A stretch of DNA of 64,000 bases from Thalassococcus arenae (GTDB lineage Bacteria; Pseudomonadota; Alphaproteobacteria; Rhodobacterales; Rhodobacteraceae): NCBI RefSeq assembly GCF_019104745.1, contig NZ_JAHRWL010000001.1, positions 1,531,001-1,595,000 of the forward strand, in the 5' to 3' direction. Position numbers and translations under genes: made by a program. Within the stretch, counting starts at the first letter, position 1. Each line of letters begins with the position of its first letter. Under the pieces are notes generated by a model, which ran no database searches, was not told where the DNA came from, and worked only from the letters and a program-made list of their open reading frames with translations. Of the stretch, positions 52,284 to 58,031 are shown one piece after another.

Positions 52284-52886
52284 TCACTCCACGCGCAGAT
52301 CGAATCGGCAGGCCGGGTCTCCGGTGGCGGCGCAGGCCACCTCGCGGCAGCGGACACCCGGATGGACCAGCCGGCGATAGAGCGTTTCGAACACCGCCGC
52401 GTGCCAGCGGCAAAGCGGTATCGGCGATGACGCGCCGCGGATCAACGGGTTGTCGTGCAGGGCGAACTGCCAGGACGAAAGACGCCGAAACCGCCCCGAT
52501 CCGGCAAAGGTCCAGGCATGGCGAGCGATGGCGTGCGACAACAGGGCTGCGGCGGCGGCCGGCGGCAAAGCCCGCAGCATCGTTTGCACCGGGGCGGGAA
52601 TACGGTGGGTCAGGATGTAGTTACCGGTGTGACGCCCCGCCTGAGCCGCGAGCCCGCCCGACCGGGCGCCGAAACGGGCGCGCAGGGCGTCGTGCAGCCG
52701 GGCGGCCTGCGCCTCGCAGATCATCGAACCGCCGTCGGGCACGATCACACCGGCCCGGGCAAGAAACGCCGTGGTCGCCGTGACACCCAGCCGTGCTTCG
52801 ATCACCGGAAGCATCTGCAACACCGCGTTCGGACCGATCAGGCCCGGTTCGCCCGGTGACGGCGCCACGGCAAGGTCGCGCGGCAT
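52284..52886 (-). CDS. bchJ: BchJ, bacteriochlorophyll synthesis protein (V4R domain)
   Basis: A 200-residue protein with a C-terminal V4R-type domain (CREVACAATGDPACRFDL carries the conserved cysteines). BchJ was named as a 4-vinyl reductase, but later work assigns that reaction to BciA/BciB, and BchJ may instead carry a porphyrin intermediate. GLIGPNAVLQMLPVIEARLG is the typical N-terminal block. It begins one base after bchE, an arrangement known from Rhodobacter photosynthesis clusters, which supports the identity. Confidence 0.85.
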   Translation of the reverse strand: MPRDLAVAPSPGEPGLIGPNAVLQMLPVIEARLGVTATTAFLARAGVIVPDGGSMICEAQAARLHDALRARFGARSGGLAAQAGRHTGNYILTHRIPAPVQTMLRALPPAAAAALLSHAIARHAWTFAGSGRFRRLSSWQFALHDNPLIRGASSPIPLCRWHAAVFETLYRRLVHPGVRCREVACAATGDPACRFDLRVE

Positions 52887-52887
52887 C

Positions 52888-54537
52888 TCAGAGGTCGCTC
52901 AGCTGTTCGGTTCCGCCCCCGCAGGCCTTGACCGCCGCGTCGCCCGGCATCCGGAACGCGGCGCGTTCCTTCATCTGCGCCTTGACCGCCTCGCGCCGTT
53001 CCTTGGCGCGCGCGGCGCGGTCGGCCGCGGCTTCCCAGTCTTCCAGTTGCGCCTCGGCCAGTTGCCGGGTGTCGTCGAAATCGAAGTGCACCGTGTTCTT
53101 GGTCTGCGGACCCCAGTACCCGGCCTTGCCCAGGTCGTAGAAGGTGCGCTGCACCCCGGCCTTGAGAAACGCCTTGAGACACCCCAGCAGATAGCGCCGG
53201 CGATACCCGGTGCCGCGCCACGGGTAGTGGAACAGCGCCTTGCGCATGTAGAAGCGGCGGTAGTTCTTCATCACCCCGTCCAGCAACTCGCCGCGCGTCA
53301 TCGCGTCGGGTTTCATGATCGGTGTGACGAAGTTGTACTTGGAGAAATCGAAGATCTCGACCTGGTCCCGCAATTCCTGGAACAACGGCGTGAACGGCCA
53401 GGGCGTGTACATCGCCCAGTTGGCCAGGTCGGGCTGCCAATCCCAGGCCATCTGGAAGGTTTCCTCGAGCGTCTCCTCGGTCTCGTTGTCCAGACCCACG
53501 ATGAACTGCGCCTCGGTAAAGATATCGGCCTCGCGCAGCAGGCGGATCGCGGTCTTGTTCTCGTCGACCTTGGTTTCCTTGTTGAAACGGTCGAGTTTCA
53601 GCTGTGCGGCCGCCTCGGTCCCAAGGCTGACATGCACCAGCCCGGCCTTGCGGTAGAATTTCAGCAGATCGCGGTCGCGGTAGATATCGGTGACGCGGGT
53701 ATTGATGCCCCATTGCACCCGGCGCGGCAGGTCGCGGGCGATCAGTTCTTCGCAGAACTGGATGAACTTCTTGCGGTTGATGGTGGGTTCCTCGTCGGCG
53801 AGGATGAAAAAGCCGACGCCGTGGTTCTCAACCAGGTCCTCGATTTCGTCCACCACGGCGATGGGGTCACGCACGCGGTAGTCGCGCCAGAATTTCCATT
53901 GCGAACAGAACGAACAGGTGAACGGGCAGCCGCGCGCCATGTTGGGAATGGCCACGCGGGTGCCCAGCGGAATGTAGATGTATTTCTCCCACTCCAGGAT
54001 CGACCAGTCGGGCTTGATCTTTTCGAGATCCTTGACGGTGCTGGCGGCCTGGGTTGCGACGATGTCGTCGCCGTCGCGAAAAGCCAGCCCGTGGATGCGG
54101 CGGCGGTCGGCGGGCCAGCGCCCGTCGCGGATCGCCTCCATCAGGTTGACGAGGATCTCTTCGCCTTCGCCGCGGACGATCACGTCGATCCAGGGGGCTT
54201 CGGACAGGACCTGCTTGTACATGAAGGTCGCGTGCACCCCGCCCAACATGCGGATGGCGTCCGGAACTGCCTGCTGAGCAAGGCGCAACACTTCCTCGGC
54301 GCGGTAGATCGACGGGGTGATCGCCGTGACGCCGACCACGTCGGGCCGCAACGCGGCAATCTGTCGGCCGAGGTCGTCATCGGCGATATCGTTGGTCATC
54401 GCGTCGATGAAATGGATGTCGTCGAACCCCGCCTGGCGCAAGTGCCCGGTCAGGTAGGCCACCCATGCGGGCGGCCAACTGCCGGCGATCTCGGCGCCGC
54501 CGGACCTGTAATTCGGGTGGACGAATAAGATGCGCAT
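52888..54537 (-). CDS. bchE: BchE, anaerobic Mg-protoporphyrin IX monomethyl ester cyclase
   Basis: A 549-residue radical-SAM enzyme. The N-terminal cobalamin-binding domain (1 to about 165) includes [20 protein letters not shown], and the radical-SAM cluster is Cys204, Cys208 and Cys211 (CPFTCSFC). The sequence is typical of BchE, which forms ring E of bacteriochlorophyll without oxygen. No aerobic cyclase (acsF) is in the window. The ATG at 54537 follows AGGGAG; the gap to carB holds a PpsR/CrtJ palindrome and an FNR box. No other bch, crt or puf gene lies within 49 kb upstream or 6 kb downstream. Confidence 0.93.
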
Positions 54538-54551
54538 GGCCGACTCCCTGT

Positions 54552-54569
54552 TGTAAACTTCAGTTTACA
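54552..54569. promoter_or_regulatory. PpsR/CrtJ operator of bchE
   Basis: TGTAAACTTCAGTTTACA is a perfect 8-2-8 palindrome fitting TGT-N12-ACA, the site of the redox- and light-responsive repressor PpsR/CrtJ. It lies 15 bases before the bchE ATG and covers a plausible -10 (TAAACT on the minus strand, 54562-54567), as expected for repression by blocking polymerase. Confidence 0.88.
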
Positions 54570-54588
54570 GTCAACACGTCTACTTAAC

Positions 54589-54602
54589 TTGACATAGATC
54601 AA
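54589..54602. promoter_or_regulatory. FNR/FnrL-type box before bchE
   Basis: TTGAC-ATAG-ATCAA matches the FNR consensus (TTGAT-N4-ATCAA) in nine of ten specified bases. Its centre is about 41 bases upstream of the start site predicted from the -10 box above, the position used by FNR as activator. This fits anaerobic induction of the oxygen-independent cyclase. Confidence 0.8.
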
Positions 54603-54626
54603 ATCCGGACGGTTGGTGGCAAAGGC

Positions 54627-54654
54627 TTGCACGCAGGCAGCGGATGCGTATAAC
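54627..54654 (+). promoter_or_regulatory. Candidate promoter of carB
   Basis: TTGCAC (54627-54632), a 16-base spacer and TATAAC (54649-54654, five of six), 29 bases before the carB ATG. The FNR box is only about 25 bases upstream of its -35 box, so FNR may affect carB too. Confidence 0.55.

Positions 54655-54683: not shown

Positions 54684-58031
<3,348 letters not shown>

Follow-up and report, generated by a model that had tools for sequence, protein, structure and literature searches.

Candidate FnrL and PpsR sites sharing a half-site in the bchE promoter of Thalassococcus arenae and its relatives

The bchE locus

How does Thalassococcus arenae place its anaerobic cyclase under the control of oxygen? 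The BchE enzyme is thought to be oxygen-labile, and the genome (3.7 Mb in 5 contigs) has a gene for AcsF (524.8 bits), the cyclase that uses oxygen, as well; the cell must therefore select one of the two. We analyzed a 64,000-nucleotide stretch of this genome, called the window throughout, that contains bchE and the following neighbors.

52888..54537, minus strand: bchE, anaerobic Mg-protoporphyrin IX monomethyl ester cyclase (TIGR02026, 832 bits, cut-off 481)
52284..52886, minus strand: bchJ, directly downstream of bchE (TIGR02019, 180.5 bits, cut-off 74.3)
54684..58031, plus strand: carB, divergent neighbor of bchE (NF003671, 1711.9 bits, cut-off 599)

The intergenic region between bchE and carB measures 146 bp and holds an FNR-type site together with candidate PpsR sites. 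In two related loci (L060:4341-4916 and L086:4341-4916) the best bchJ match lies upstream, not downstream, of bchE and is weaker, at 35 to 36% identity.

An FNR site and two PpsR-like sites upstream of bchE

The preliminary description of this region had placed two sites in front of bchE, a TTGAC-N4-ATCAA motif at 54589-54602 and a TGT-N12-ACA palindrome at 54552-54569. Both are present; the first is exact (TTGACATAGATCAA), and the second (TGTAAACTTCAGTTTACA) has perfect arms of 8 bp. A further PpsR-like site, B, lies between them at 54577-54594, partly within the first, and had been missed.

54589..54602, minus strand: FNR/FnrL-type site, TTGATCTATGTCAA read towards bchE, the sole exact match in the window
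54552..54569, minus strand: PpsR site A (candidate), TGTAAACTGAAGTTTACA, 33 bp after the start of the FNR site, covering the predicted -10 and start
54577..54594, minus strand: PpsR-like site B, TGTCAAGTTAAGTAGACG, last base off consensus, 5 of 6 fixed bases

The bare count of TGT-N12-ACA is not decisive, and context was needed to judge the palindrome: the window has 9 such matches against 5.58 expected, a number reached in 15 of 100 shuffles. A matrix was therefore trained on 10 of the 17 matches in a 60-kb stretch of the photosynthesis gene cluster (PGC) of the same genome; the other 7 were left out as not promoter-like, and this selection was visual and in part guided by resemblance. Leave-one-out scores of the ten training sites ran from 11.5 to 24.2. 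With this matrix, site A scored 21.0 bits, ranking first of 63,983 window positions, and its score was reached by none of 5,000 dinucleotide shuffles of the 146-bp intergenic region. Site B ranked second of the 63,983 with 16.9 bits, a score reached by 8 of 5,000 shuffles of that region, and the third position had 7.7 bits. At a threshold of 12 bits, which was picked after the data were seen, 3 of 93,813 other positions of the own genome were exceeding it; these positions are not a random sample, since they include stretches chosen for pattern matches.

Site B overlaps the FNR site by 6 bp, with TGTCAA (54589-54594) common to both. Because B borrows FNR bases in this way, its free half was also scored alone and gave 4.3 bits in the window, a value reached by 0.3% of window 9-mers. 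The spacing between A and B is 25 bp, and the three pairs within 60 bp of each other in the PGC are spaced by 24, 25, and 24 bp. As judged from this overlap, PpsR and FnrL may have to compete at the bchE promoter.

Regulator genes

Both regulators to which the preliminary description had assigned its sites have genes in this genome. The ppsR gene is at C1:1265204-1266526 (TIGR02040, 470 bits, cut-off 275) and encodes the one PpsR over the cut-off; it lies inside the photosynthesis gene cluster (about C1:1.248-1.294 Mb), roughly 0.3 Mb from bchE, where the genes confirmed by NCBIfam include acsF, bchG, bchC, crtI, crtA, and bchI. The fnrL gene is at C1:2194194-2194988 on the minus strand (NF045989, 464 bits, cut-off 300), and its product has, by eye, an N-terminal cysteine cluster CSDC...C..C and one further Cys. 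An FNR-type site, TTGATCTGGGTCAA, at G000:C1:2194954-2194967 just before the likely fnrL start suggests that fnrL is autoregulated. The pattern TTGA-N6-TCAA was not found in the 60-kb photosynthesis-cluster stretch (G000:C1:1245001-1305000), which leaves bchE as the one bch gene, of those seen, with an FNR site in this genome.

The R. sphaeroides antirepressor AppA is a BLUF protein, whereas a search of this genome gave no BLUF domain. The gene before ppsR, which from its position and sequence we take to encode a PpaA/AerR-type antirepressor, matched a B12-binding domain below threshold (26.4 bits, cut-off 32.1). Cysteines of PpsR play a redox role. One Cys of the PpsR encoded here aligns with a Cys of the PDB PpsR and another falls in the HTH_8 region (by eye), and the accessible text of one study describes such a role for PpsR/CrtJ cysteines (PMC5362033).

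The two regulators also accompany bchE in the family genomes sampled. Of 149 family genomes, 35 carry bchE; PpsR is over the cut-off in all 35 and FnrL in 34, and the 35th, of 84% completeness, has two FnrL fragments. This presence of FnrL speaks against a different CRP/FNR protein, for example the FixK-like one encoded at C1:988979-989707, being the main user of the FNR-type site. The genome does have eight HTH_Crp_2 genes over the cut-off, the FixK-like protein scores 149 bits (under a cut-off of 300), and CrpK also acts at the R. sphaeroides bchE according to the available part of one report (PMC4263372), but we regard such a user of the site as improbable.

Conservation of the sites among relatives

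The promoters compared were those of the window and the best 80 of 573 confirmed bchE relatives, aligned on the FNR site (n = 81). Because only the best 80 were kept, the set represents the nearest part of the family; some of its loci are metagenome-assembled genomes. TTGA-N6-TCAA is present in all 81 upstream regions of this set and lies 62 to 92 bp before the start codon in every one. What lies further upstream varies: in the 80 relatives (again the best 80 of 573) the neighbor is carB in 13 loci and ppsR in 30, and 37 have neither in the upstream sequence covered. The carB gene is within about 430 bp in 8 of its 13 loci and at 0.9 to 1.6 kb in the other 5. Since the module stays at bchE while its neighbor differs, it belongs to bchE. 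The location of the sites in the bchE-carB intergenic region would also fit sites serving carB, or both divergent genes; we rejected this reading, which we consider very improbable, because the FNR site is kept, at its narrow range of distances from bchE, in loci with or without carB.

Positions in the alignment were counted from the FNR site, register A being +32 to +34 and register B being +8, where its TGTCAA is the FNR half-site. In the 81 promoters (best 80 of 573 plus the window), perfect TGT-N12-ACA sites occur at +8 (35 promoters), +32 (8), +33 (51), and +34 (3). These are all 97 of the perfect sites found between the FNR site and the start codon, where 200 shuffles of the same stretch gave a mean of 3.7 and a maximum of 14; only 13 others occur in 30,861 further positions of these promoters. 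Perfect A sites are thus present in 62 of the 81 and perfect B sites in 35, with A alone in 44 promoters (among them the window), B alone in 17, both sites in 18, and no perfect site in 2. By the 12-bit threshold, 61 have A, 53 have B, 33 have both, and none of the 81 lacks both; within 100 control positions upstream of the FNR site, no promoter of the set exceeds it.

The perfect arms of the window's palindrome, longer over their 8 bp than PpsR needs, might instead point to a different repressor, such as one of the TetR type. However, the 62 perfect A sites keep only TGT, the A at position 5, and ACA near-invariant and vary elsewhere inside the site, which is the PpsR pattern, the PGC-trained matrix ranks the palindrome first, and the R. 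sphaeroides PpsR motif from ChIP falls in the same register, as given in the accessible part of its report (PMC4344238). On the conserved pattern and the matrix rank we rejected the TetR-type operator as very improbable.

The FNR site is asymmetric in keeping with site B. The FNR half adjoining B reads TGTCAA in 59 of the 81 promoters (best 80 of 573 plus the window) and the far half reads TTGACA in 6, a lopsidedness that accords with B borrowing bases of the adjoining half. Scored alone, the free half of B exceeds 6 bits in 47 of the same 81; the mirrored register does so in 1 of 81, and the background in 0.2%.

It could nevertheless be that dual control is real and that only the FNR site and A act in T. 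arenae, with B a decayed site or a chance neighbor. The window's B has five of the six fixed bases. In a Rhodobacter-type clade of 17 rows, all 17 carry A and none carries B, with TGTCAA in 5 of 17 against 54 of 64 elsewhere in the set of 81, and an R. sphaeroides-like genome also does without B. Against this, B is the second-ranking position of the window, all 13 loci with carB upstream among the best 80 of 573 relatives score B above 12 bits, and the window's nearest tree rows are mostly of perfect-B types. We consider an idle B a serious possibility, though one that will probably not hold, and we continue with the reading in which B is a second, weaker operator.

A second sample of 30 further family loci has the exact FNR site in 29. 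Among the 23 of these loci not identical to members of the first set, 8 have A, 7 have B, and 7 have both; the remaining one has an FNR site one base off and a B site read by eye. The apparent trade-off between A and B in the 81 promoters (Fisher p 4.6e-8; best 80 of 573 plus the window) was not significant when relatedness was allowed for, with 3 supported independent pairs and a median p of 1. Compensation between A and B was accordingly dropped as an explanation. Register labels change often on the tree, with 23 label changes, and 10 for A.

Predicted promoter geometry

54561..54569, minus strand: predicted extended -10, TG at 54569-54568 plus a hexamer at 54566-54561 (AAACTG), or TAAACT one base upstream
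54554, minus strand: predicted transcription start (A), position +48, from conserved promoter positions

Some bases within register A are conserved independently of a perfect palindrome. In the 81 promoters (best 80 of 573 plus the window), A occupies +37 in 78 and T occupies +41 in 62. The 19 promoters of this set without a perfect A site have A at +37 in 19, T at +41 in 15, T at +33 in 17, and G at +34 in 17. Positions +36 to +41 are predicted to be the -10 hexamer and +33/+34 the TG of an extended -10. The window departs from the pattern at +41, having G and not T as the last -10 position; taking TAAACT, one base upstream, as the -10 would shift the predicted start by one base. The conserved -10 positions would put the start at 54554 and hence the center of the FNR site at a predicted -41.5, the class II position. 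By the same count, the predicted span of A is about -15 to +3, and that of B about -40 to -23.

Comparison with known promoters

One genome, here called R. sphaeroides-like, encodes a PpsR that matches the PDB PpsR chain at 100% identity across 377 residues. Upstream of its bchE, TTGACATGCATCAA is followed at an offset of 33 bp by TGTCAACTGAAATGGACA, and the TCAA has its T at -57. In the accessible parts of the respective papers, TTGACATGCATCAA is the published R. sphaeroides FnrL string, supported by FnrL ChIP (PMC2908626), and TGTCAACTGAAATGGACA is the published PpsR string, supported by PpsR ChIP (PMC4344238). A base change at -57 in TCAA cut FnrL-driven activity in R. sphaeroides by about 90%, as stated in the text available from a third study (PMC4263372). 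An overlap of the two published strings had also been considered and was wrong; the sequence gives the FNR site, A at +33, and no B. The two promoters are alike in having A at +33 after an FNR site, which starts at -67 there and at -65 here. They differ in B, for which the R. sphaeroides-like promoter scores -17.5 bits, and in a second published PpsR motif about 550 bp upstream of the R. sphaeroides start codon. Because the same layout of FNR site and A coincides with published, ChIP-supported strings, dual control of bchE is already known, and because the R. sphaeroides-like genome lacks B, B is not needed for it. By sequence comparison, the promoter in the window is of the same kind as the R. 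sphaeroides bchE promoter, with an added B-like site.

Expression data on FnrL at bchE conflict between studies. In the transcriptome of an R. sphaeroides fnrL mutant, bchE was unchanged or went in the opposite direction, yet reporters showed activation, according to the accessible text (PMC4263372); the available part of another paper has bchE activated by FnrL in R. capsulatus and repressed by it in R. sphaeroides. In the accessible portion of one report (PMC5362033), CrtJ ChIP peaks are described at the R. capsulatus bchE, with comparable binding whether or not oxygen is present, so that simple exclusion may be too simple a picture.

Tandem PpsR sites over -10 and -35 have precedents. The accessible text on R. 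capsulatus bchC describes tandem CrtJ palindromes at the -10 (-4 to -21) and the -35 (-30 to -47), two TGT-N12-ACA sites that resemble the predicted placement of A and B here over those elements, and unlike them in that this text describes no FNR site inside the upper palindrome (PMC5362033). Dinoroseobacter shibae bchF likewise has PpsR motifs over its -10 and -35 regions, as is predicted for A and B, whereas no sharing of an FnrL half-site is reported in the available part of that paper (PMC10890935). The main text of the accessible open-access literature yielded no PpsR operator at bchE that shares the FNR half-site, and within that limit the shared half-site is an apparently undescribed variant.

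Related patterns elsewhere

A wider FNR/PpsR composite occurs in 68 of 394 genomes and is not specific to bchE; the controls gave 0 among the matches listed. The window's own genome is without the exact composite because its B site is imperfect. Of 30 composite loci examined, 14 are at bchE, 6 at ppk2, 2 at bchC, 1 at crtE/crtD, and 7 elsewhere. Beside ppk2 (polyphosphate kinase 2, by eye), TTGAY-N3-TGTCAA-N9-ACA recurs in several genera (L163, L164, L170, L180, L187, L190), where it may represent either an FNR site or no more than a TTGACA -35. The same composite was assigned by eye to two bchC loci and to one locus between crtE and a crtD-like gene (L168, L175, L192).

Two further PpsR-like sites were seen in T. 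arenae itself. One, of 23.4 bits, is at L033:5615-5632 (G000:C2:142615), 23 bp before a gene at L033:5656-6879 that carries FrhB_FdhB domains and presumably encodes a BciB-type vinyl reductase; from its upstream sequence, this gene is a possible PpsR target outside the cluster. The other, of 20.8 bits, is at L034:4618-4635 (G000:C2:704618), 21 bp before the isoprenoid gene ispG (L034:3466-4596, 451.9 bits, cut-off 280).

Proposed mechanism and implications

We think it quite likely that FnrL and PpsR form a dual oxygen switch of bchEJ, including occupancy of both A and B and the exclusion of one regulator by the other. Without oxygen, FnrL with an intact Fe-S cluster would bind 54589-54602, 41.5 bp before the predicted start, and act as a class II activator at a promoter that has no good -35. 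With oxygen, PpsR would bind the two operators 25 bp apart, presumably cooperatively, and on A it would cover the extended -10 and the start, with the weaker B covering the -35 region. As TGTCAA belongs both to B and to the proximal FNR half-site, PpsR, once bound, should not only obstruct RNA polymerase but also exclude FnrL. The preliminary description had proposed direct dual control of bchE in this strain. The control itself is supported by the two regulator genes and the conserved sites, and the restriction to one strain was too narrow, the layout being general in the relatives examined.

More tentatively, with a nearly even chance of being right, we propose that many Rhodobacteraceae have a repressor operator written into the half-site of the activator (B) and into the extended -10 (A), and that PpsR and FnrL are hence mutually exclusive, with the register shifting repeatedly between species and at least one PpsR site being kept. 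If this is true, mutating the shared bases could not abolish repression without abolishing activation as well. The natural versions with A only, B only, and both A and B allow a comparison in one host, and the promoter, kept across the bchE genes examined, would be a compact example, open to testing, in which activator and repressor read the same bases.
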